The notes beneath the pieces were generated by a model. It saw only the letters and a list, made by a program, of their open reading frames with translations. It did not search any database and was not told the origin of the DNA. From Gemmatimonadota bacterium (GTDB lineage Bacteria; Gemmatimonadota; Gemmatimonadetes; Gemmatimonadales; Gemmatimonadaceae): a stretch of DNA of 51,409 nt. A program made the position numbers and the translations under genes. The stretch covers positions 1 to 51,409 of the forward strand of contig NSHR01000029.1 of the NCBI GenBank assembly GCA_002737115.1, written 5' to 3'. Every line of letters begins with the position of its first letter. Within the stretch, counting starts at the first letter, position 1. Positions 33,905-46,198 of this stretch are shown in pieces.

Positions 33905-34954
33905 ATGCGCCGGACCCTTTACCTCATCGGGGCGCTCCTCCTCGCCCACGTCGTCCTGCTGACCGTCCACCCTTCGGGAGCGACGGTCGCCGACCGCTCC
34001 GACGGCCTCGACATCGGCATCGTCTTCGATGTCGGCGGTCGCGGCGATAAGTCGTTCAACGACGGAGCCTACCTTGGCGGCATGCGCGCCGCCAAAGCGC
34101 TGGGCGCGCGCGTGCGCTACATCGAGCCGGGCGAAGGCTCCGATCGTGAGGCCGGCCTGCGACTGCTGGCCGCTGAGGGCGTGGATCTGGTGGTGGCCGT
34201 CGGCTTCATCTTCACCGACGACGTCAACCTGCTGGCGAAGGAATATCCGAACGTCAAATTCGCCGACGTCGACTACGCCGTGGCCACCGACAGCGTGGGC
34301 ACCCCGCGGCCGATGCCGCCCAATCTCGTGGCACTCAAGTTCCGTGAAGAGCAAGGTTCGTTCCTGGTCGGTGCGCTGGCGGCACTGGTGGGCAAATCCA
34401 AGAAGGTCGGCTTCGTGGGCGGCATGGACATCGCGCTCATTCACAAGTTCGAAGCCGGCTACCGGGCCGGTGTGCAGCACGTCTGCCCCGACTGCGACGT
34501 GATCGTGAACTACGCCGGCGTGACCCCCGAAGCGTTTCGCAATCCGGGACGCGGCAAGGAGATGGCGCTGGCCATGTACAACCAGGGCGTGAACGTGATC
34601 TTCCACGCCTCGGGCTCCACCGGACTCGGCGTATTCGAAGCGGCGCGCACTACGGGCAAGCTGGGCATCGGCGTCGATGCCGATCAGTACAGTGAAGCGC
34701 CCGGCCACGTGCTCACGTCGATGGTGAAAGGGATAGACGAATCGGTGTTTCAAGCGGCAAAGGCGGTGAAGGAGGGCACGTTCACAGGCGGCATTCAGCA
34801 GTTTGGTCTGGCCGAGAATGGCGTTGGGTATGTGTACGACGGCAACAACAAGGCGCTGATCCCCGATGCCGTGCGCGCGACACTCAATGCGCTCACCGCC
34901 GATATCGTCGCCGGGCGCATCACGGTGCCGAGTACGCGACCGGGTACGAAATGA
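33905..34954 (+). CDS. BMP-family nucleoside-binding protein of an ABC importer
   Basis: A 349-aa solute-binding protein of the Med/BmpA family, which binds purine and pyrimidine nucleosides outside the membrane. It has an N-terminal membrane or signal helix and family motifs IGIVFDVGGRGDKSFND, VDLVVAVGFIFTD, FREEQGSFLVGALAAL, KVGFVGGMDIALIHKFEAGY and VNVIFHASGSTGLGV. No lipobox cysteine is evident, unlike many relatives. Its stop overlaps the ATPase start as ATGA. Together with the next three genes it forms a complete RnsABCD/YufNOPQ-type importer. Confidence 0.92.
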   Translation: MRRTLYLIGALLLAHVVLLTVHPSGATVADRSDGLDIGIVFDVGGRGDKSFNDGAYLGGMRAAKALGARVRYIEPGEGSDREAGLRLLAAEGVDLVVAVGFIFTDDVNLLAKEYPNVKFADVDYAVATDSVGTPRPMPPNLVALKFREEQGSFLVGALAALVGKSKKVGFVGGMDIALIHKFEAGYRAGVQHVCPDCDVIVNYAGVTPEAFRNPGRGKEMALAMYNQGVNVIFHASGSTGLGVFEAARTTGKLGIGVDADQYSEAPGHVLTSMVKGIDESVFQAAKAVKEGTFTGGIQQFGLAENGVGYVYDGNNKALIPDAVRATLNALTADIVAGRITVPSTRPGTK

Positions 34955-36504
34955 TTATGCGTGCATCGGAGACACCCGCCATTCGCATGACGGGCGTCGT
35001 GAAGACGTTCGGTGCGGTGGTGGCCAATCGCGATGCCTTCCTCGACGTCGCACCGGGCGAGATTCACGCGCTGGTTGGCGAGAATGGTGCGGGCAAGAGC
35101 ACGCTGATGCGTGTACTGGCCGGCATGTACGCGCCCGATGCCGGCACGGTGCTGGTGAACGGCACAGACGTTACTGGCTGGAAGACGCCGGACGCCATCG
35201 CCGCCGGCGTGGGCATGGTGCATCAGCACTTCATGCTCGTGCCCACCCTCACGGTGGCCGAGAATGTGATTTTGGGCATGGAGCCGCGCAACGGCCTGCA
35301 GGTGGATCTGCCCCGCGCGATCATCGAGGTGGAATCACTGTGCAAGAAGTGCGGACTGCACGTCGATGCGAAGGCGAAAGTGGCCGACCTGTCGGTGGGC
35401 GAAGCGCAGCGCGTCGAGATTTTGAAGGCGCTGTATCGCGGCGCGAAGGTTCTCATTCTCGACGAACCCACGGCGGTGTTGTCTCCCCCTGAGGTGCGCG
35501 ATCTGTGGACGGTGCTACGCGCGCTCAAGGCCGACGGCGGCACGGTGGTGCTGATCACGCACAAGCTCGACGAAGTGGTCGCGATTTCTGACACGATCAC
35601 CGTGATGCGCGGTGGCATGACGATGTCGCGTTTCGCGACCGCCGGCACGACCGCGCGAGAGATCGCGCGAGCGATGGTCGGCCGCGACGTCCAACTGCAT
35701 CTCGATACGCAGGGCGACGCCGAATCATGGGTGGCACCGTCCGCCGTCGCAGCATCGGCCGCGCCAGTGCTGCGCGTGACGAATCTGTCAGTGATGTCGG
35801 ACCGCGGCGCGCGCGCCGTGCACGATCTCAGTTTTGAGATCCGCCCGGGCGAAATTCTGGGCATCGCCGGCGTGGAAGGCAATGGACAGACGGAGTTGCT
35901 CGAAGCCATCGCCGGATTGCGCGCGATGCAATCCGGTCGCGTGCTGCTGGCGTCGCACGATGTTGGCACGCGCTCCGTGCGCGAGCGGGCCGATCTCGGA
36001 CTCTCTCACATTCCCGAAGACCGGCATCGACGTGGCCTGATTCTCGACTACAGCATCGCCGATAATCTGATCCTTGGCCGACAGCATCATTTCGGGTCGT
36101 TCGGCTCGCTCGATGCGGCGCGCATTGCGCTGAACGCCGCTGAACAGGTGCAGCGGTTCGACATCCGTCCGGCCATGCCGTCGTTACCAGCGCGCGCGTT
36201 GTCAGGCGGCAATCAACAGAAGATCGTGGTTGCGCGTGAGATGGGCCGCGCGTTCAGCGTGTTGCTGGCGGCGCAGCCCACGCGCGGCGTGGATGTGGGC
36301 GCGATCGAATTCATTCATGCGCAGCTGCGGGCCGCGCGCGATGCGGGCAAGGGGATTCTGCTGGTCAGCGCGGATCTACCGGAAGTGCTCGCGCTGTCCG
36401 ATCGCATTGCCGTGATGTATGGCGGACGGTTTGTGACGGTCTTGCCGGCCGCGCAGTGCACGGCCGAGCAGCTGGGGCCCTACATGACGGGAGCGGCGGT
36501 ATGA
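34951..36504 (+). CDS. Nucleoside ABC importer ATPase, duplicated domains
   Basis: A 517-aa protein with two fused ABC domains. Domain 1 (residues ~11-240) is canonical: GENGAGKST (K49), VHQHFMLVPTLT, LSVGEAQRVEI, LILDEPTAVL. Domain 2 (from ~271) is degenerate in the usual way for this family: GVEGNGQTELLEAIAG (Gln for the Walker A Lys), LSGGNQQKIVVAREM, and LLAAQPTRGVD replacing the DEP Walker B. It powers the two permeases downstream. The start overlaps the BMP stop; a second ATG at 34957 is possible. Its stop overlaps the next start (ATGA). Confidence 0.93.
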   Translation: MIMRASETPAIRMTGVVKTFGAVVANRDAFLDVAPGEIHALVGENGAGKSTLMRVLAGMYAPDAGTVLVNGTDVTGWKTPDAIAAGVGMVHQHFMLVPTLTVAENVILGMEPRNGLQVDLPRAIIEVESLCKKCGLHVDAKAKVADLSVGEAQRVEILKALYRGAKVLILDEPTAVLSPPEVRDLWTVLRALKADGGTVVLITHKLDEVVAISDTITVMRGGMTMSRFATAGTTAREIARAMVGRDVQLHLDTQGDAESWVAPSAVAASAAPVLRVTNLSVMSDRGARAVHDLSFEIRPGEILGIAGVEGNGQTELLEAIAGLRAMQSGRVLLASHDVGTRSVRERADLGLSHIPEDRHRRGLILDYSIADNLILGRQHHFGSFGSLDAARIALNAAEQVQRFDIRPAMPSLPARALSGGNQQKIVVAREMGRAFSVLLAAQPTRGVDVGAIEFIHAQLRAARDAGKGILLVSADLPEVLALSDRIAVMYGGRFVTVLPAAQCTAEQLGPYMTGAAV

Positions 36505-37679
36505 GTACCGGACCAGCAACGCCGCCGCGCGAACAACAGCGGGCAATGCAGAGCACCGGCGAGGTGCGCGCGATGGCGGAGTTGCCGGCGCACGTCGGCA
36601 TCGGACTGGCTGCTGGCTTCCTGCCGCCATTGGTGGCACTGGCGATCGCGGCGGTCGTGGGCGACCTGCTCATCCTGAGTTTTGGCGAAGCACCGAGCAC
36701 CGTGTTCCGTCTGTTGGTGGAGGGCACGTGGGGCAACGCGTACGGTATCGGTCAGGTGCTCTACAAGACGACCACGCTCGCTTGCACCGGTCTCGCGTTT
36801 GCGCTGGCTGGTCGCGCGGGGCTGTTCAATGTGGGCGCCGAAGGACAGCTCGCCGCTGGTGGCTTCGGCGCCGCGGTGCTGGGCTTGATGCTGCCCGTCG
36901 GCACGCCGGCGTTGATTGCGGTACCACTCTGCTTGTTGGCCGCGATGCTGGTGGGTGCCGGCGTCGGCGCCGTGCCCGGCGCGCTGCGCGCAAAGTTTGG
37001 CGCGAGCGAAGTGATCGTGACGATCATGCTCAACTTTATCGTGCTGGCGTTTCTCAACTGGATCGTCTCGGCCAAGCTGCATGTGCCGGAAACGCTGCAT
37101 ACGCCGCCAATTATGGCGGGGATGATGCCCCGCTTCGCCGATAGCTTCGCGGCGTTCCGCGGCAGTGCCGCGAATTTCACGATCGTGTTTGCCGTGCTCG
37201 CGGCGGTGGCGAGCTGGTGGTACTTGTTCCGCACCCGCAGCGGCTATGCCGTGCGCGCGGTGGGGCTGCAGCCCGATGCCGCCGAGTATGGCGGCGTGCG
37301 CGTGCCCCGCGTGCTGCTGGTCACGATGTGCCTCTCGGGTGCGCTCGCCGGACTGGGCGGCATGAACTTCGTGCTGGGCTACAAGGGCTACTACGAAGAA
37401 GGCTTCGCCGGTGGAGCGGGCTTTCTGGGGATCGCCGTAGCCTTGGTGGGACGCAATCATCCGTTTGGCATCCTCGGCGCCGCGCTGTTGTTCGCCACGT
37501 TGTCGCAGGGCGGACTCGCGGTAAACGCCGTCGTGCCGAAGCAGCTCACCGATATTCTCACGGCGGTCGTGATTCTGGCGGTCGCCACCGCGGTACCAGA
37601 AGTCCAGAAGCAGCTGCGAGCGGCAGCGGCCAACGTGACCGCAACGTTCTACCGTGATGCGCGGAAGGGGGTGTCATGA
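36501..37679 (+). CDS. Nucleoside ABC importer permease 1
   Basis: A 392-aa inner-membrane permease of the YufP/RnsC type with about nine or ten TM segments. Typical sequences are FALAGRAGLFNVGAEGQLAAGG, VPGALRAKFGASEVIVTIML, RTRSGYAVRAVGLQPDAAEYGG (cytoplasmic EAA-like loop) and GGAGFLGIAVALVGRNHPFG. ATG 36501 overlaps the ATPase stop. The C-terminal ~30 residues are charged and cytoplasmic. Its stop overlaps permease 2 (ATGA at 37676-37679). Confidence 0.92.
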   Translation: MSTGPATPPREQQRAMQSTGEVRAMAELPAHVGIGLAAGFLPPLVALAIAAVVGDLLILSFGEAPSTVFRLLVEGTWGNAYGIGQVLYKTTTLACTGLAFALAGRAGLFNVGAEGQLAAGGFGAAVLGLMLPVGTPALIAVPLCLLAAMLVGAGVGAVPGALRAKFGASEVIVTIMLNFIVLAFLNWIVSAKLHVPETLHTPPIMAGMMPRFADSFAAFRGSAANFTIVFAVLAAVASWWYLFRTRSGYAVRAVGLQPDAAEYGGVRVPRVLLVTMCLSGALAGLGGMNFVLGYKGYYEEGFAGGAGFLGIAVALVGRNHPFGILGAALLFATLSQGGLAVNAVVPKQLTDILTAVVILAVATAVPEVQKQLRAAAANVTATFYRDARKGVS

Positions 37680-38551
37680 TTCTGCTCACCTTCCTGCTGC
37701 AGACCATTCGCATTGCGATTCCCTATCTGCTCGCGGCGGCCGGCGGTGTGATGTCGGAGCGCGTGGGCATCATCGCGCTCGGACTCGAAGGCATGATGCT
37801 GGCCGGTGCATTCGGCGCCGCGCTGGGCAGTTACTACGGCGGTAGTCCATGGATCGGACTGGCGGGTGCGCTGGCGGCGGGCGCAATGGTGACGGCGGTG
37901 CTGGCCGTTGCGACGCTGCGCTACAAGGCCAATCAGGTGGTGGTCGGCATCGCGATCAACCTGCTCGTGGTCGCTGCCACGCGGTTCTATCTGAGGCGCA
38001 TCTTCGACAGCGCCAGCAACTCGCCGCGCGTGCCCGGCTTCGGTGGAGAAGGCGCCGGTGGGATGTTCGCGAGTTTCGTGAACCCCGTGGTATGGATGGG
38101 ACTGGCGGCGCTTCCCGTGCTGGCGTGGGTGCTTTATCGCACCCCGTTTGGATTGCGGGCGCGCGCCGTGGGCGAGAAGCCGGAAGCAGCCGCGACATTG
38201 GGCGTGGCCGTCACGCGATTGCGTCTGCAAGGATTGCTCATCGCCGGCTCGCTGGCGAGTCTTGGCGGCGCCTACCTCGCGCTCGACCAACACCAGTTTT
38301 CTGATAGCATGACGGCAGGCCGAGGCTTCATCGCGCTCGCCGCCGTGATCTTCGGACGCTGGGAGCCGGTTCGCGTGGCGATCGCGTGTCTCCTGTTCGC
38401 GGGCGCCGAGACGCTACAGATTCAGCTGCAGGGCTCGCAGATGATTCCTAGTCAGTTCGTCGAGATGATTCCGTACGTGTTAACGATCGTTGCCGTGGCG
38501 GGCGTGGTTGGACGAAGTGTCGCACCCGCCGCGCTCGGGAAAACGGAGTGA
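37676..38551 (+). CDS. Nucleoside ABC importer permease 2
   Basis: A 291-aa permease of the YufQ/RnsD type. Motifs are RIAIPYLLAAAGGVMSERVG, IALGLEGMMLAGAFGAALGS, RYKANQVVVGIAINLL, RTPFGLRARAVGEKPEAAAT and AGRGFIALAAVIFGRWEPVR. It pairs with permease 1 to form the heterodimeric channel. Its stop overlaps the GTG of the MFS gene (38548-38551). Confidence 0.92.
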   Translation: MILLTFLLQTIRIAIPYLLAAAGGVMSERVGIIALGLEGMMLAGAFGAALGSYYGGSPWIGLAGALAAGAMVTAVLAVATLRYKANQVVVGIAINLLVVAATRFYLRRIFDSASNSPRVPGFGGEGAGGMFASFVNPVVWMGLAALPVLAWVLYRTPFGLRARAVGEKPEAAATLGVAVTRLRLQGLLIAGSLASLGGAYLALDQHQFSDSMTAGRGFIALAAVIFGRWEPVRVAIACLLFAGAETLQIQLQGSQMIPSQFVEMIPYVLTIVAVAGVVGRSVAPAALGKTE

Positions 38552-39792
38552 CAGCCTCACACAACGACGAGCATCCCATCGACGGGGGGAAATCCGCCTT
38601 CGGCAAGCTGACGGTGTTGATGGTGACGGCCTTCATCGACATGCTCGGCATGCTGATGATTCTGCCGCTGCTGCCGTTCTACGCGAAGGATCTGGGAGCC
38701 GGCGGCTTTGTGGTGGGACTGCTCGTCAGCTCCTTCAGCGTGGCACAGCTGCTCAGCGCACCACTATGGGGACGGTTCAGCGACAAGCATGGTCGTCGTC
38801 CGGCGCTGATCGTTGGGCTCGCGTCGAGCGCGGTCGCCTATGTGGTGTTCGCCTACGCCGATTCGCTGTGGCTGCTGCTGCTGTCACGCATCGTGCAGGG
38901 CGCCGGCGGCGGCACGGTGAGTGTGATTCAAGCGTACGTCGCCGATGCCACGCGTCCGGAAGATCGCGCCAAGAGCCTTGGCTGGCTGTCGGCCGCCACG
39001 AATGCCGGTGTCGCGCTGGGCCCGGTGATCGGTAGCTGGGTGCAGCACTGGGGACCACATACCCCGGGGTTGATGGCGGCGGGGTTGTGCCTCATCAACA
39101 TCGTCTTCGCATCGAAATATCTCACCGAAGTGCGGAAGCCGGCGGAGCTCAACGCCGATGGGTCGAAGCCGGTGCGGAAGGGATCGCGTGAAGCGGTGTT
39201 CCGCGTGGTGAGTCATCCCAGCGAGCCGGCGTCGCGGCTGATCCTGATCTACGCCATCGCGATCGGCGCCTTCCAGGGCACGACGGCGATTCTCGCCCTC
39301 TTTCTCGCCGTGCGGTTCGGCGTCACGGCCGACACCATCGGCTACTTCTTCATGTACATCGGCGTACTGAGCGTCGTGGTGCGCGCACTGTTCCTCGGCA
39401 AGATCGTCGATCACTTCGGCGAAGCGCGGTTGAGCCGATACGGCGTGCTGTTCCTCGCCGCCGGACTGCTCGGGATCTCCTTCTCGCGCGACTATGTCAC
39501 ACTGGCGCTGGCCGTCGGCCTGCTGCCGCTCGGGACCGCCTTCACCTTCCCGTGCGTAACGGCCATGCTGTCGCGGGTGGTGGCGGGTTCGGAGCGCGGG
39601 TTGTATATGGGCGTGCAGCAGACGTACGGCGGCATCACGCGCGTCGGCTTTCCGATTTTGCTTGGCTTTGCGTTCGACACCTTCGGCCGACAAAGTCCGT
39701 TCTGGATCAGCGCGACGCTGGTGATGGCGACGCTGCTGTTGGGACGGGATATGGAGCTCTATGCCCCTCGGGTGGTGAAGGCTTCTTCGTAA
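38548..39792 (+). CDS. MFS transporter (drug:H+ antiporter-like)
   Basis: A 414-aa protein with about 12 TM helices. The MFS motif A is seen as GRFSDKHGRRPALIVG between TM2 and TM3. Other matches are SRIVQGAGGGTVSVIQAYVAD (TM4 region, TetA/TCR-like) and GVALGPVIGSW (motif C-like). It starts with GTG overlapping the permease stop as GTGA, so it is translated with the nucleoside importer. Export of a nucleoside analogue or base, or unrelated drug efflux, are possible; substrate unknown. It is followed by a large palindrome. Confidence 0.88.
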   Translation: MTASHNDEHPIDGGKSAFGKLTVLMVTAFIDMLGMLMILPLLPFYAKDLGAGGFVVGLLVSSFSVAQLLSAPLWGRFSDKHGRRPALIVGLASSAVAYVVFAYADSLWLLLLSRIVQGAGGGTVSVIQAYVADATRPEDRAKSLGWLSAATNAGVALGPVIGSWVQHWGPHTPGLMAAGLCLINIVFASKYLTEVRKPAELNADGSKPVRKGSREAVFRVVSHPSEPASRLILIYAIAIGAFQGTTAILALFLAVRFGVTADTIGYFFMYIGVLSVVVRALFLGKIVDHFGEARLSRYGVLFLAAGLLGISFSRDYVTLALAVGLLPLGTAFTFPCVTAMLSRVVAGSERGLYMGVQQTYGGITRVGFPILLGFAFDTFGRQSPFWISATLVMATLLLGRDMELYAPRVVKASS

Positions 39793-39920: not shown

Positions 39921-39969
39921 CGCTGTCCTGTTAAGTCGTCGTTCCACTCCAAATCAGGTGCCTTTCCCA

Positions 39970-41967
39970 ATGCGTTTTCGTCTCCTCGTCGCCCTCCTCG
40001 CGGCCTCCGTCTCCGCCGCGAGCGCCCAGTCTCCCCGCCCCATCCGCAGCGCTGACATCTATCGGCTGCGCGACGTAGGCGCCGGTCGCCTTTCCCCCGA
40101 TGGCGCCTGGATTGCCTACACCGTCACCACCGTCGACTCGGCCAAGGACAAGAGCGACAGCGATGTGTGGATGGTGAACTACGAGGGCACGCGCACGATC
40201 CGGATGACGAGTTCTCCGGAGGGTGAGAGCAACCCGCGGTGGAGCCCCGACAATCGCTATCTCAGCTTCGTGTCCGGCCGCTATGAGTCGAAGGGCGGAC
40301 AGCTGTGGCTGCTCGATCGATCCGGCGGTGACGCGGTGCGTTTAACTGACCTAAAGGGCGGAATCGGTGAGTACGAATGGTCGCCCGACGGCACGCGGTT
40401 GGCCATAGTGTCGCACGACCTCGACCCCGACGAGTCGAAGCCCGATTCGCTGAAAACGAAGAACCCGAAGCCGATCGTGCTCGATCGCTACGCCTTCAAG
40501 CGCGACAACACCGGCTACCTCGATCGCCTGCGCGATCATGTGTACATCGTGGATGTCGCCACCAAGAAGGCCGTGCAGATCACAACGGGCGATTTCGACG
40601 ATCAGTCGGTGCGCTGGTCGCCCGATGGCAAACGCCTCGCGTTCGTGAGCGAGCGCAGTGGCACCGATCCCGATCGCACCAACAATGCAGACCTCTACGT
40701 AGTGGATGCAGCGCCGGGGTCTACACCGGTGAAGCTCACGACGTGGGGTGGACCCGACGCCAATCCCGTGTGGAGCCCCGATGGAAAGTCCATCGCGTAT
40801 CTGCAGGGGAGCGAGCCGCAGCTGTCGGCCTATTCGCAGAATACGATCGCGGTGGTGTCGAGTGCGGGTGGCGCGGCACGACTGGTGGCGGCGTCGCTGG
40901 ATCGCGACGTGAGCGGGCTCACGTGGACTGCCGACGGCACGACGCTGCGCTTCCTGTTGGGCGACGACCGCGCGGTGCACTTGGCGACCGTGCCGGTTGC
41001 TGGCGGTGCGGTGACGCGTGTGCTCGACGGTCGGCGCGCCGTGTCGTCGTACGATGCGTCGACGACCGGCCGCATGGTGCTGAATACCGCGACCGCCACC
41101 CGCTCGGGCGAAGTGTTCGCCTTCGAGAACGGGGCGTTGCGCGCGCTCACGCATGTGAACGATTCCATCTTCACCGCGCTGTCGCTGGGCACCACCGAAG
41201 ACGTGCAGTTCAAGGACAAGGACGGGCTCACCGTGGGCGCGCTGCTGGTGAAGCCGGCCGGCTTCGATGCGAGCAAGAAGTACCCGCTCATGCTGCGCAT
41301 TCACGGCGGCCCGAACGGACAAGACCAGCACGCCTTCTCGTTCGAGCGTGAACTGTTCGCGGCGAACGGCTATCTCGTGCTGGCGGTGAACTATCGAGGC
41401 AGCTCGGGGCGCGGTCAGGCGTGGAAGAAGGCCATCTTCGCCGACTGGGGCAACAAGGAAGTGCAGGATCTCATGGCCGGCGTTGATCACGTGATCGCCA
41501 CGGGCGTGGTGGATACCACGCGCATGGGCATCGGCGGCTGGAGCTATGGTGGCATTCTCACCGACTACACCATCGCCACCACCTCACGCTTCAAGGCCGC
41601 CACCAGCGGCGCCGGCAGCGCGCTGCAAACCACGATGTACGGCAGCGACCAGTACATCTACCAGTACGAAAACGAACTCGGCGCGCCGTGGAAGAACCCG
41701 AAGCTGTGGGAGAAGCTGTCGTATCCCTTCTGGCACGCGGATCGCATCAGCACACCCACGATGTTCCTGGGAGGCGAGAAGGACTTCAACGTCCCCATCG
41801 CCGGCGGCGAGCAGATGTATCAGGCGCTCAGGTCACTCGGCGTTCCGACGCAGATGATCGTGTATCCCGGACAGTTCCACGGGATCTCGCGACCGAGCTT
41901 TGTGAAGGACCGGTACGACCGGTATGTGGGGTGGTATGCGAAGTACTTGATGGGAGTGACGCAGTAG
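39970..41967 (+). CDS. S9-family prolyl oligopeptidase / acylaminoacyl peptidase, secreted
   Basis: A 665-aa serine peptidase. A signal peptide (LLVALLAASVSAASAQ) follows ATG 39970; a GTG four codons earlier is less likely. Residues ~30-400 form a WD/PD40-like beta-propeller with repeated SPDG blades (LSPDGAWIAY, WSPDGTRLAIVS, WSPDGKRLAFVS, WSPDGKSIAYLQ). The alpha/beta-hydrolase domain carries HGGPNGQDQ (oxyanion hole), GGWSYGG (Ser525), GEKDFNVP (Asp605) and PGQFHGIS (His637), so the triad is intact. It is likely periplasmic, degrading peptides. Confidence 0.93.
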   Translation: MRFRLLVALLAASVSAASAQSPRPIRSADIYRLRDVGAGRLSPDGAWIAYTVTTVDSAKDKSDSDVWMVNYEGTRTIRMTSSPEGESNPRWSPDNRYLSFVSGRYESKGGQLWLLDRSGGDAVRLTDLKGGIGEYEWSPDGTRLAIVSHDLDPDESKPDSLKTKNPKPIVLDRYAFKRDNTGYLDRLRDHVYIVDVATKKAVQITTGDFDDQSVRWSPDGKRLAFVSERSGTDPDRTNNADLYVVDAAPGSTPVKLTTWGGPDANPVWSPDGKSIAYLQGSEPQLSAYSQNTIAVVSSAGGAARLVAASLDRDVSGLTWTADGTTLRFLLGDDRAVHLATVPVAGGAVTRVLDGRRAVSSYDASTTGRMVLNTATATRSGEVFAFENGALRALTHVNDSIFTALSLGTTEDVQFKDKDGLTVGALLVKPAGFDASKKYPLMLRIHGGPNGQDQHAFSFERELFAANGYLVLAVNYRGSSGRGQAWKKAIFADWGNKEVQDLMAGVDHVIATGVVDTTRMGIGGWSYGGILTDYTIATTSRFKAATSGAGSALQTTMYGSDQYIYQYENELGAPWKNPKLWEKLSYPFWHADRISTPTMFLGGEKDFNVPIAGGEQMYQALRSLGVPTQMIVYPGQFHGISRPSFVKDRYDRYVGWYAKYLMGVTQ

Positions 41968-41991: not shown

Positions 41992-42258
41992 CTAGGCGCT
42001 CGCGGTGGTGATACGCGAGCGCAGGAACTCGGGCGCGAAGTCCGCGCCACAGGGCCAGACGACCGTGTGCAGCATCGGGTCGAGCTGGCCGGCGGCGAAG
42101 TGGGCCGGATCCTTGGGTGGCTCGAAGACGGGCGCGTCGAGATCGTGACTCAGATCGGCGACACCCTCGGCGCCGTCATTGAAGCGGAGCCAGAGCCGAT
42201 ACGCGGAGACGATGCGCGCGTCGGTGACGTGGAGGATGGCGGGGATGATGACGGACAT
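41992..42258 (-). CDS. DUF2442 protein (antitoxin-like partner of DUF4160)
   Basis: An 88-aa protein from ATG 42258. The sequence has the DUF2442 pattern of a small beta-rich fold: VTDARIVSAYRLWLRFNDGA, GVADLSHDLDAPVF, and LDPMLHTVVWPCGADFAPEF. DUF2442 and DUF4160 genes commonly occur together and are regarded as a toxin-antitoxin-like pair. Here the partner lies only 4 nt upstream on the same strand but is interrupted by a stop codon, leaving DUF2442 alone intact. Confidence 0.8.
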   Translation of the reverse strand: MSVIIPAILHVTDARIVSAYRLWLRFNDGAEGVADLSHDLDAPVFEPPKDPAHFAAGQLDPMLHTVVWPCGADFAPEFLRSRITTASA

Positions 42259-42262
42259 ATGC

Positions 42263-42520
42263 CTATTCCCAAGGAGCGATAGGGACGAGCGGGAGGCCGA
42301 GTCGAGCCCGGTCCCAGTTCGTCCCGAGATCATCACGTGAATATTCCCACCATTCGAGCAACAATGCCAGCGGACGGCGCGGGAATCGACCAGCGACCAT
42401 GCCGGTCTCTATCTCGACCGTCACCTCGGACTCGCCGTATGTCGCGTGGAAGTGCGGTGGCGCGTGATCCCGTTAGTACATCACCACGGTGATGCCTAAA
42501 AAGCGACTGATTACTGGCAT
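42263..42520 (-). pseudogene. DUF4160 gene interrupted by an in-frame TAA
   Basis: Reading from ATG 42520 gives MPVISRFLGITVVMY, then TAA (42473-42475) at codon 16, then RDHAPPHFHATYGESEV and on to LALLLEWWEYSRDDLG and PLVPIAPWE with TAG at 42263-42265. This is a full-length DUF4160 protein except for the stop, which sits where relatives have an aromatic or Asn residue (MYY/MYF-x-DHAPPHFH). A single C-to-A change of TAC would explain it. The longer frame on the same strand is unrelated noise. Start, stop and spacing to DUF2442 are otherwise perfect. Confidence 0.85.
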
Positions 42521-42671: not shown

Positions 42672-43061
42672 ATGACAACCATTCAGCAGCGTGTGGTCGC
42701 GGCGGTGATTCGTGATGGCGACCGGTTCCTGATATGCCAGCGTCCAGCCCATAGGCGCCACGGCTGCCTCTGGGAGTTTCCCGGCGGCAAGTGCGAAGCC
42801 GGCGAGACCGACGCGCAGGCGATCACTCGAGAGCTGGCAGAGGAACTCGGCGTCGAGGTGTCAGCGGTCGGAGACGCACTCTTCGCGGCCTCAGATCCCG
42901 ACTCGTCGTTCGTTATTGCATTTCTCCCCGTCGATATCAGGGGCGAGCCAGTCTGCATCGAGCACGCGGCACTCGCGTGGGCGTCTCGACACGAAATGAC
43001 CGCATACGAACTCGCCCCGAGCGATGCGCGCTTCCTGAACTCTCTCGGACTCGATGAATGA
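42672..43061 (+). CDS. NudG/MutT-like NUDIX (d)NTP pyrophosphohydrolase
   Basis: A 129-aa enzyme predicted to hydrolyse damaged or modified nucleoside triphosphates to monophosphates. The Nudix box is complete from GGKCEAGETDAQ to RELAEELGVEV. The N-terminal FLICQRPAHRRHGCLWEFPGG and the C-terminal EHAALAWASRHE, followed by LAPSDARFL, resemble E. coli NudG, which prefers 5-methyl-dCTP and 5-hydroxy-dCTP, more than MutT. ATG 42672 has GGGAG upstream; the extra upstream frame has no similarity. Its stop overlaps the start of the helicase (ATGA, 43058-43061), so the two proteins are made together. Confidence 0.85.
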   Translation: MTTIQQRVVAAVIRDGDRFLICQRPAHRRHGCLWEFPGGKCEAGETDAQAITRELAEELGVEVSAVGDALFAASDPDSSFVIAFLPVDIRGEPVCIEHAALAWASRHEMTAYELAPSDARFLNSLGLDE

Positions 43062-46000
43062 GCTTACCCATTGGCCTGTACGACCAGCTCGTAACTGAAG
43101 AGTTGGCGGCGCGACTGAACACAATGGGCGCCGCCGTACAAACGGACGAACTCGCCAGCGGAGAAGCGGCCGGCCCATTGCTCGACCTCTTGTCGAACAC
43201 GATGTCGCGACTGCTGGAATCGTTCGAATCCGACCCGCGCGATTCGCTGCTCAAGCAGTTGGAGCTCGTGAACGGCGTACTGTTGCACCTTCGCCAGCAG
43301 ATGAGCGGCGAGGGGCGCAACGCCATCACGCTTCCACAAACACCCGCTCGAAGGCTACGCGCGATCCGCGTGGACGGGGAGGAAGCGCGCCTCCCCGAGA
43401 CCGGCCTCGCCGCACCTTGGCTGTTCACGGCGGCGAAAGCTTCCCCATCGCTGTACCACGAAATTCAGCGTGAAGCGACCGACTGCGATCAGATCGACAT
43501 TTTGGTCAGCTTCATCACCGTGTCTGGGGTAAGAAAGCTGATGGACGTGTTGCGGCGTGCGACGGCGCCAGATGCGAGCGGTGTGGGTCGGACGCGCATC
43601 CGCGTGCTCACGACTACCTACACCGGAGCAACGGAACAGGTCGCGCTGGACATGCTCGCTCGACTCACTGGATGTGAAGTCAAAGTCTCGCTGGACGGGC
43701 GACGTACGCGCCTGCACGCGAAGGCCTGGATCTTCCATCGCGCCACCGGATTTGGTTCGGCGTACATCGGGAGCGCCAATCTCTCGGGCGCGGCGCTGCT
43801 AGGGGGCTTGGAGTGGACCGTCAAGCTCACGGAACACACCCAGCGTGTCATTTTTGAACGTGCGAAGGCGCATTTCGAGACGCTCTGGGAAGACAATGAA
43901 TTCTCGAGATATGATCCGGATGATGCCGACTGCCATCAATCGCTGGCGCGCGCCCTCTCGAAAGAAACGGGGCGTTTCGACACGAGCACACCCGTGTTGT
44001 TCGACATCACGGCAAAGCAGTACCAAACGGATATTCTCGAACAGCTCCAATTCGAACGAGCGCACGGAAGAACCCGAAACCTGCTCGTTGCGGCTACCGG
44101 AACCGGAAAGACCGTTATGGCGGCGCTCGATTACAAAGAGCAAGTACGTTCAAGTGGATCGCGCCCGCGCCTGCTCTTTGTATCACATCGAGGCCAGCTG
44201 CTCACGCAAGCACTCGATACGTATCGTGCAGTGCTAGGCGACCACAGTTTCGGTGCACTTCTCGTTGCAGGACAACAACCGGCTTCGTTCGATCACCTAT
44301 TTGCTAGCATTCAAAGCCTGACATCGCAGCGGATCGTTGAACGCTGCGGTGCCGGGCACTGGCACACCGTGGTCATTGACGAATGTCATCGCATCGCCGC
44401 GCCACAATTCGAGGCACTCGCACGCGGCGTAGAGCCGAAGCTACTGCTCGGCCTCACGGCCACCCCGGAGCGAACCGACGGGGAACCGATCGCGACCTAT
44501 TTCGACTCGCGACCCGATGGTTCGCCTGCCGCCGAGCTGCGGCTGTGGCAGGCACTGGACCTCCAACTGTTGGCGCCGTTCGAGTACTTCGGATGCAATG
44601 ACGAGACCGACTTCTCGGAGGTCCCATGGAACAGCGGCGGCGAGACCGCAGCGCTGGACAACCTTCTGACTGGAAATCACGCCCGTGCCCGGATGGTGAT
44701 CCACGAGTGGGAGCGCTTGTCCGGGAATGCACGAAAGACCAGAGCGATCGTGTTCTGCGTATCCGTTCGCCATGCGGAGTTCATGACGGCGCAGTTCGTG
44801 AAGGCGGGGCTGTCGGTGGTATGTCTCACCGGCGACTCGTCAGACGTGGAACGGAGGGAGGCACCGCAACGCCTCGCGCGCGGTGAAATCTGCGCGATCG
44901 TCACCGTCGACTTGTACAACGAAGGCGTCGACATCCCAAGCGCCGATACCTTGCTCTTTCTTCGCCCGACGCAGAGCGCCTTGGTGTTCCAGCAACAGCT
45001 GGGACGCGGGCTTCGCCTCCACGACGGGAAGAGTAGCTGTCTCGTGCTCGACTTCGTCGGACGTCACCGGTCGGACTTTCGATTCGACAAGCTGATATCG
45101 TCGGTAACGGGCCTGAGCCGACGCGAAGTACTGAAGGGACTCGCGGAGGGGTTCTCGACCTTGCCCAGTGGATGCCACATCCACCTCGAGGCACAGGCGC
45201 GTGATCGCGTGCTGGCGAATCTCCGGTCAGCGGCACAACAAACGTGGGGACGATTACGCAACGAGCTGCAGAGCTATGCCGCGATGACGGGCCGCGTATC
45301 CGTGCGACTCGCCGACTTTCTGCACGATCAGGACATCGAGTTATCCGAGATCTATCGTGAATCGACGCCCAGCGGCTGGACGTCGCTGCGCCGCGCCGCA
45401 GGCTTGATTCCACGCGACGAGGCCAGCGAACCTGAGGCACTCACGTCGCGTTCACTTCGCCATCTGCTGCACGTCGACGATCCCGCTCAGATCAGCGTCA
45501 TTCGGAGAGTCGCGGAAGCGGGGAGCAGCTATACGCCGTCGAGTACGGCGGAGGGATTGCGGGCCCAGATGCTCACCTATCAAGTCGAACACGCGGGCAA
45601 CCACACATTCGCGGATTTCACGCGAAAGCTCGAGGGTGAGACGCACGTTCGAGGAGAGCTGAGTGAGCTGGCCGACATCCTCGAATCAAGAAGCCGCGTT
45701 GCCCAGCGCGCCATTCCCGGATTCAACGATGTCCCCCTAGTGCTGCACGCGCGATACGAGCGCCGTGAGATTCTTACCGCGATCGGCCTGCACACGGCCA
45801 CAGCCCGTCCAGCCTCCCGCGAAGGCGTACTTCGTCTTCAGGAGCGCAAGGTCGAGGTGATGTTCGTGACGCTCGATAAGTCCGACGGATTTCGCGATCA
45901 GGTGGCGTATCACGACTACGCCGTCAGCCCGACGCGCTTTCATTGGGAAACGCAGAACTCGGCAGGCCCGAACACAGCGGCGGGCCAGCGCTATATCGAG

Positions 46001-46198
46001 AGCGCAACGAACGAGTGGACCTTCCAACTCTTCGTGCGAGAGACACCAAATCACGCTTTCGTCGCCTGCGGTGGCGTACGCGTGGCGAAACCCACCGACG
46101 TGTCCGGCGAGCGCCCCATGTCAATTTTCTGGACGCTCGATGTGCCGCTGCCTCTCTCGGTGTTCGGTGCGTTCAGCGTGCTCAAGCAGGGCCGCTAG
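43058..46198 (+). CDS. PLD nuclease-helicase-DUF3427 protein, SauUSI-like type IV restriction enzyme
   Basis: A 1046-aa defence-type protein. Residues ~110-290 are a phospholipase-D nuclease domain with a single HKD motif (H220-A-K222, then GSANLS from 238). Residues ~320-690 are an SF2 helicase: Walker A AATGTGKT (K351), DECH (441-444), GLTATPERTDG, and GRGLRL with R650. The last ~170 residues are DUF3427 (PLVLHARYERREILTAIG, FVTLDKSDGFRDQVAYHDYA, FHWETQN, TAAGQRYIES, RPMSIFW). This PLD-helicase-DUF3427 order is that of SauUSI, an ATP-dependent enzyme cutting DNA with 5-methyl- or hydroxymethyl-cytosine. Sampled lines (55-60% GC) are lower than in the importer genes (up to 72%). It is coupled to the NUDIX gene upstream. 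Confidence 0.9.
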   Translation: MSLPIGLYDQLVTEELAARLNTMGAAVQTDELASGEAAGPLLDLLSNTMSRLLESFESDPRDSLLKQLELVNGVLLHLRQQMSGEGRNAITLPQTPARRLRAIRVDGEEARLPETGLAAPWLFTAAKASPSLYHEIQREATDCDQIDILVSFITVSGVRKLMDVLRRATAPDASGVGRTRIRVLTTTYTGATEQVALDMLARLTGCEVKVSLDGRRTRLHAKAWIFHRATGFGSAYIGSANLSGAALLGGLEWTVKLTEHTQRVIFERAKAHFETLWEDNEFSRYDPDDADCHQSLARALSKETGRFDTSTPVLFDITAKQYQTDILEQLQFERAHGRTRNLLVAATGTGKTVMAALDYKEQVRSSGSRPRLLFVSHRGQLLTQALDTYRAVLGDHSFGALLVAGQQPASFDHLFASIQSLTSQRIVERCGAGHWHTVVIDECHRIAAPQFEALARGVEPKLLLGLTATPERTDGEPIATYFDSRPDGSPAAELRLWQALDLQLLAPFEYFGCNDETDFSEVPWNSGGETAALDNLLTGNHARARMVIHEWERLSGNARKTRAIVFCVSVRHAEFMTAQFVKAGLSVVCLTGDSSDVERREAPQRLARGEICAIVTVDLYNEGVDIPSADTLLFLRPTQSALVFQQQLGRGLRLHDGKSSCLVLDFVGRHRSDFRFDKLISSVTGLSRREVLKGLAEGFSTLPSGCHIHLEAQARDRVLANLRSAAQQTWGRLRNELQSYAAMTGRVSVRLADFLHDQDIELSEIYRESTPSGWTSLRRAAGLIPRDEASEPEALTSRSLRHLLHVDDPAQISVIRRVAEAGSSYTPSSTAEGLRAQMLTYQVEHAGNHTFADFTRKLEGETHVRGELSELADILESRSRVAQRAIPGFNDVPLVLHARYERREILTAIGLHTATARPASREGVLRLQERKVEVMFVTLDKSDGFRDQVAYHDYAVSPTRFHWETQNSAGPNTAAGQRYIESATNEWTFQLFVRETPNHAFVACGGVRVAKPTDVSGERPMSIFWTLDVPLPLSVFGAFSVLKQGR

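Follow-up and report, generated by a model that had tools for sequence, protein, structure and literature searches.

Why does the gene for a small NudG-like NUDIX hydrolase share its last four nucleotides with the gene for a large nuclease resembling SauUSI, the type IV restriction enzyme of Staphylococcus aureus? The question is raised by a 51,409-nt contig of a Gemmatimonadota bacterium (NSHR01000029.1, assembly GCA_002737115.1), which is called the window here; all positions refer to it (Table 1). Pairing of NUDIX genes with genes for DUF3427 nucleases is real and recurrent, and it is larger than a first-pass annotation of this DNA could see, because SauUSI itself is included. The explanation that we tentatively prefer, at a probability of roughly 0.4, is that the NUDIX enzyme prevents incorporation of 5-modified deoxycytidine triphosphate (dCTP) into host DNA, thereby protecting the cell from restriction by its own SauUSI-like nuclease. 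The 4-nt ATGA overlap between the two plus-strand genes, as first annotated, is confirmed; an identical junction occurs in three close relatives (L029, L033 and L347), and it may couple translation of the two proteins.

The large protein has the domains and motifs of a SauUSI-like enzyme. ResIII, Helicase_C and DUF3427 exceed their Pfam cut-offs, PADLOC labels the protein a type IV mREase (660.8 bits, E = 8e-199), and its nearest sequence in the PDB is SauUSI (7clg, E = 3e-64, covering residues 135–767 only). The full SauUSI layout with Walker A, DECH and GRGLR motifs, as first annotated, is borne out by these domains and by a motif check, Walker A, the DECH box and motif VI all being intact. 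The HKD nuclease motif was likewise found, the HxK pair (H220, K222) being accompanied by S239, N241 and E252 and the PLDc_2 match lying just under its Pfam cut-off; H220, K222, N241 and E252 are each kept in 134 of 137 family rows. The C-terminal part is modeled as an SRA fold, with SauUSI as best structural match (14% identity in the structural alignment). Among the five residues of the SauUSI 5-methylcytosine pocket, F841, D858 and W868 are identical in the window nuclease (F936, D953 and W963) and I842 is conservatively replaced by V937. The modeled fold and, in part, these pocket residues support an SRA domain that reads modified cytosine. With fold and motifs observed, the protein would, by analogy with SauUSI, act as a type IV restriction enzyme. 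SauUSI is described as a single polypeptide sufficient for activity that cuts DNA containing 5-methylcytosine or 5-hydroxymethylcytosine (PMC3874153); in S. aureus it is said to be a strong obstacle to the transfer of genes (PMC7913695).

Table 1. Gene pair, nuclease regions and upstream neighbors, by position in the window
Feature	Position	Strand	Details
NudG-like NUDIX hydrolase	42672..43061	+	129-amino-acid open reading frame; Pfam NUDIX E = 2e-18
ATGA stop/start overlap of NUDIX and nuclease genes	43058..43061	+	
SauUSI-like PLD-helicase-DUF3427 protein	43058..46198	+	1046-amino-acid open reading frame
PLD nuclease region	43592..43888	+	Residues 179–277; H220, K222, N241, E252; PLDc_2 24.4 versus cut-off of 27 bits
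SF2 helicase/translocase	44009..45019	+	Residues 318–654; Walker A 345–352, DECH 441–444, QQLGRGLR 646–653
DUF3427, modeled as SRA fold	45698..46165	+	Residues 881–1036; pocket F936, V937, D953, W963
DUF2442 gene	41992..42336	-	Between S9 peptidase and NUDIX genes
S9 peptidase	39958..41967	+	Orthologues in five genus mates directly followed by NUDIX gene
MFS transporter	38548..39792	+	Part of same conserved neighborhood
ABC importer with PnrA-like binding protein, four genes	33905..38551	+	Upstream

The small protein retains an intact catalytic NUDIX box (GKCEAGETDAQAITRELAEELG, residues 39–60). Its sequence identity is 40% with NudG (78 bits) and 31% with MutT (51 bits), and its nearest PDB sequence is Escherichia coli NudG (2rrk, E = 3e-19), with MutT2 (5zrc) also matched. 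A structural model with a mean predicted local distance difference test (pLDDT) score of 91 matches the folds of BdRppH, MutT2 (including its 5mdCTP complex) and NudG with E-values between 5e-13 and 2e-11. The original description of this protein as closest to NudG therefore stands by sequence, NudG being the nearest characterized NUDIX enzyme, and by fold NudG is among the nearest. Asp118 occupies the position of MutT Asn119, a residue that we take to contact the base; to judge from the sequence, this substitution argues against MutT specificity. All 33 partner candidates (24 adjacent to a nuclease gene, five at 570–2349 bp and four from plasmid-collection records) retain the box together with the Asp that NudG also has, and most partners score nearer to NudG than to MutT. 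The window enzyme is accordingly expected to be a NudG/MutT2-type pyrophosphohydrolase that would convert (d)CTP and 5-substituted dCTP to monophosphates. A 5-methyl-dCTP pyrophosphatase activity is attributed to NudG in PMC5389931. Phage relatives at 36–37% identity also occur, in two unannotated records. A match to the PADLOC candidate-defense model PDC-S07 (104.8 bits) was rejected as independent proof of a defensive role: the model matches in 14 of 14 control genomes at E ≤ 0.001, so that a lone match says little.

Recurrence was assessed in genomes drawn from six phyla, which were searched with PF11907 and from which the neighborhoods of matches were fetched; the names of the five phyla other than that of the window follow the named loci used as centers. 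PF11907-positive genomes numbered 22 of 298 in the window's own phylum and 40 of 299, 18 of 299, 24 of 246, 16 of 149 and 32 of 112 in the other draws. Absent from the survey were 5 of 25 places in Actinomycetota, 9 of 33 in Myxococcota and one below-cut-off place in Bacillota. With 79 of the 80 named loci of a single nearest-relative scan added (one repeat was omitted), the set comprised 220 loci, of which 176 were assessable and 44 were not, being fragments or having a short flank or a weak nuclease match. The nuclease gene has a NUDIX open reading frame (ORF) no more than 100 bp away in 23 of 111 assessable survey loci: 5 of 16 in the window's own phylum, 15 of 31 in Bacillota, 2 of 20 in Actinomycetota and 1 of 13 in Pseudomonadota. 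Pairing unique to the window, considered as a possibility, is rejected, since paired loci turned up in four of the six phyla. The count is 22 of 105 when the window and the five center genomes, picked as DUF3427 carriers, are left out, and 19 of 102 groups in the survey (20 of 146 overall) when near-identical nuclease genes (≥80% identity) are merged. Seven of the named loci among the 176 are second copies of survey loci, and all seven are unpaired.

Proximity of NUDIX to the nuclease gene exceeds chance. Across all assessable loci, 24 of 176 have a NUDIX ORF within 100 bp, as against six NUDIX ORFs more than 1 kb away in 1.62 Mb, distances of 100–1000 bp falling outside both counts. When neighbors were clustered without preset families, NUDIX ranked first (25 loci, 23 of them with NUDIX as immediate neighbor); these 25 include four separately opened plasmid-collection records (L247–L250), and the ORF picker used for clustering missed some known pairs (L026, L029 and L158). 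The large protein matched 20 plasmid records, and in each of the four that were opened an annotated NUDIX gene lies close upstream. The window NUDIX matched NudG-like genes in 15 plasmid records; in the three that were opened (Pusillibacter, Priestia and Paenibacillus), no DUF3427 gene is annotated beside them. The 24 adjacent NUDIX genes are upstream on the same strand in 12 cases, downstream on the same strand in six, convergent in five and divergent in one. The convergent and divergent pairs mean that co-production is not the rule, and the statement of the first-pass annotation that the two genes are made together does not generalize beyond arrangements such as that of the window.

One of the paired nucleases is SauUSI itself. 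In the S. aureus record examined, a NUDIX gene (WP_000755954.1) ends 1 bp upstream of the SauUSI frame at both copies, each a partial frame. On the nuclease tree of 137 rows, in which unpaired named loci were thinned to every third and L247–L249 were added by hand as paired, the SauUSI clade is paired in 16 of 19 rows, or in 13 of 16 without the three hand-added loci. The paired/unpaired label needs 12 changes on this tree, the same number as when only its starred branches are considered. Together with the survey counts, these data establish the recurrent NUDIX–DUF3427 association that was initially proposed as a check on the locus.

Part of this was already in print as a remark. A 2020 figure legend names MutT homologues as small proteins beside SauUSI homologues in Streptococcus (PMC7641849), PDC-S07 lies within 20 genes of a type IV restriction–modification system in 23 of 23 Streptococcus suis cases (PMC12813430), and Streptococcus thermophilus strains with PDC-S07 are listed (PMC11514479). 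No role for a NUDIX protein beside SauUSI was found among the matches listed in the literature searched (SauUSI, DUF3427, Nudix/MutT and PDC-S07, with most subscription papers outside the search). The design, initially called novel, is thus not new as an adjacency; it is an explanation of the role that we did not find in that literature.

The explanation that we prefer starts from a property of type IV enzymes. In the SauUSI-like nuclease, the SRA domain would read 5-methyl- or 5-hydroxymethylcytosine, the helicase would translocate and a PLD dimer would cut. Such an enzyme has no methyltransferase with which to mark self, and its rule would be that self DNA contains no modified cytosine. The NUDIX enzyme may enforce this rule at the precursor stage, hydrolyzing modified dCTP before it can be incorporated and cut. 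The modified dCTP would derive from nucleosides that the cell takes up or from foreign DNA that has been shredded, and the importer with a PnrA-like binding protein near the locus is a possible source of odd nucleosides. In the window, a NUDIX gene already resident in the genus would have had the nuclease gene settle directly behind it, overlapping its end. If true, this would show why modified nucleotides are tolerated by a cell whose nuclease attacks modified cytosine, and type IV systems would gain a self-defining component.

A number of observations weigh against this proposal. SauUSI restricts by itself, both in vitro and when cloned in E. coli (PMC3874153), so that a NUDIX partner is not needed for cleavage, although E. 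coli has a NudG of its own. In the survey, a NUDIX gene within 100 bp was found in 0 of 10 Planctomycetota and 0 of 21 Myxococcota loci, and only 1 of the 65 assessable loci of the nearest-relative scan has an adjacent NUDIX gene, which is divergent. The window NUDIX falls below the NCBIfam cut-off for NudG equivalogs (PRK10546; 89.2 versus 156 bits), its top fold match is BdRppH, and its Asp118 has a counterpart in 12 of 17 NUDIX proteins that are unpaired or served as references (four have Asn and one a gap), so that this residue is not a mark of pairing. On the nuclease side, SauUSI Tyr831 lies outside the aligned block; the window protein has Gly923 or Arg926 there, depending on gap placement, and neither is aromatic. 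Tyr831 is the modeled contact of the methyl group (PMC7913695).

Co-occurrence across genomes points both ways. The window NUDIX subfamily is present in 65 of 298 phylum genomes (E ≤ 1e-25), 50 of them without DUF3427, which means that the NUDIX has another job too. It was found in 15 of 22 DUF3427-positive versus 50 of 276 DUF3427-negative genomes of the phylum sample (one-sided p = 1.4e-6) and, once six linked genomes were removed, in 9 of 16 versus 50 of 276 (p = 0.001), relatedness not being controlled in either comparison. Within the genus (30 genomes), the figures are 10 of 12 versus 5 of 18 (Fisher two-sided p = 0.008, relatedness not controlled); without the six adjacent-pair genomes they drop to 4 of 6 versus 5 of 18, which is not significant (one-sided p = 0.11) and counts against the proposal.

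The genus neighborhood bears on a rival account, in which the arrangement is a local accident: a mobile restriction gene inserted 3′ of a housekeeping NudG-like gene, and the two products do not act jointly here. In L331, L333, L335, L338 and L350, the NUDIX gene lies directly behind an S9 peptidase gene (76–80% identical to that of the window); in L351–L353 it lies behind the MFS gene. The fetched stretch contains no nuclease gene in any of these eight, although four of the eight genomes carry DUF3427 elsewhere. The order S9 peptidase (96–98% identity), NUDIX, nuclease recurs in L347 and L348, in which the gap between peptidase and NUDIX is only ~80 bp, without the DUF2442 gene. By position, then, the NUDIX gene is a resident of the genus, again a point against joint function, and the nuclease gene probably arrived later, landing behind it. 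Since the NUDIX gene occupies the same position in genus mates without a nuclease gene there, the pair in the window is not one unit acquired whole, as a single two-gene system would have been, and its association with a resident gene is probably secondary. The NUDIX tree leaves resident versus travelling origin of the window NUDIX undecided. A single dedicated NUDIX lineage for all pairs was also considered and is not supported: paired rows need four changes on the phylum tree, two of them forced by starred branches, and eight on a wider tree (two unpaired NUDIX rows omitted), again with two forced. On the phylum tree, the paired NUDIX proteins do not form one clade, and the partner at L042 is sister to an unpaired NUDIX. 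An accident is harder to reconcile with the fact that the NUDIX gene is single-copy in the carrier genomes of the phylum sample (E ≤ 1e-25; one genome has two), yet lies near DUF3427 genes of three separate nuclease clades (window and L026; L042; and L039, with NUDIX at 570 bp), or with the dominance of NUDIX pairing in the SauUSI clade. We consider this account of the locus unlikely.

Other accounts keep a joint function and change its object. The NUDIX enzyme could be an arm of attack, depleting the modified dCTP of phages with hydroxymethyl- or methylcytosine while the nuclease cuts DNA already made; the published specificities of SauUSI (PMC3874153) and NudG (PMC5389931) would suit such a division of labor. 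Removing the modified precursor would, however, leave phage DNA unmodified and invisible to the nuclease, so that the two arms would be opposed unless the drop in the pool stopped replication, and for this reason we hold an attack arm to be quite improbable. Alternatively, the enzyme might guard against oxidized cytosine by removing 5-hydroxy-dCTP or the like, a base that the SRA domain would otherwise mistake for foreign. The annotation of E. coli nudG as a 5-hydroxy-CTP diphosphatase and the nearness of most partners to NudG agree with this, but no evidence was seen that a SauUSI-like SRA domain reads 5-hydroxycytosine, no search having been aimed at that, and we give the idea little chance. 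A regulatory role is a similarly long shot: the NUDIX protein would control expression or activity of the nuclease by removing or sensing a different nucleotide or the 5′ end of an RNA. Its top fold match, near MutT2, is the RNA pyrophosphohydrolase BdRppH, and HIT and MazG-like domains also accompany the DUF3427 family; by sequence, though, it is nearest to NudG, with far lower scores against RNA pyrophosphohydrolase models, and SauUSI cleaves without partners (PMC3874153).

Nucleotide-acting domains other than NUDIX are also associated with the family, which speaks for the preferred explanation. The PLD-helicase-DUF3427 proteins at L042:7920-11501, L206:3311-7300 and L214:3060-7124 carry an N-terminally fused HIT domain, recognized by Pfam; at L042, the HIT-bearing gene is preceded by a NUDIX gene with a 4-bp overlap. 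Of the three loci opened on lactobacillus plasmids, two have a MazG-like gene downstream of the NUDIX–SauUSI pair (L248:6332-6649 and L250:6003-6311, not L249). A wider conjecture can be drawn, namely that modified-cytosine type IV enzymes generally need a nucleotide-pool partner, with NudG-like NUDIX, HIT and MazG-like proteins as alternative cleaners that define self as the methyltransferase does in ordinary restriction, SauUSI having been studied without its partner; we regard it as doubtful, although not far-fetched.

Some further features of family members were recorded in passing. An HxHxH motif without a Pfam HIT match is present at L176, L205 and L239. The DUF3427 protein at L177:2744-6601 has an N-terminal Methyltransf_25 domain, which is odd for a type IV-like enzyme. 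Peptidase_S24-like (LexA-type) matches precede DUF3427 in the C-terminal half of L206, L177 and L214, that of L214 being under the cut-off. NERD-domain proteins adjoin the nuclease gene in nine clustering rows, corresponding to eight loci (L096 and L151 are an identical locus); examples are L154:7259-8002 and L096:10190-10909, and in the two on which Pfam was run a topoisomerase-type zinc ribbon was seen.

Among known systems, SauUSI (7clg) is the closest counterpart of the window nuclease, the two sharing a PLD–SF2 helicase–coupler–SRA layout and a NUDIX gene upstream, 1 bp away in the case of SauUSI. The window protein is longer (1046 versus 953 amino acids) and lies outside the S. aureus SauUSI clade, in another large clade of the nuclease tree. 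The HxK(x4)E motif given for SauUSI in PMC7913695 is altered, E126 being replaced by H227 in a column that is variable in the family. The NUDIX protein shares with E. coli NudG (Orf135) the Asp at the MutT Asn119 position, and differs from both NudG and Mycobacterium smegmatis MutT2 by a loop (DPxS-F-I and GEP-xx-EH) that characterizes the subfamily in this phylum. It also matches PDC-S07 of PADLOC, whose co-localization with type IV restriction–modification systems in S. suis is described in PMC12813430. Finally, the HIT-PLD-helicase-DUF3427 fusions have the same core as the window nuclease with a nucleotide-acting domain attached; they differ from the NUDIX pairs in that HIT is another fold with other substrates, and they form a separate clade.

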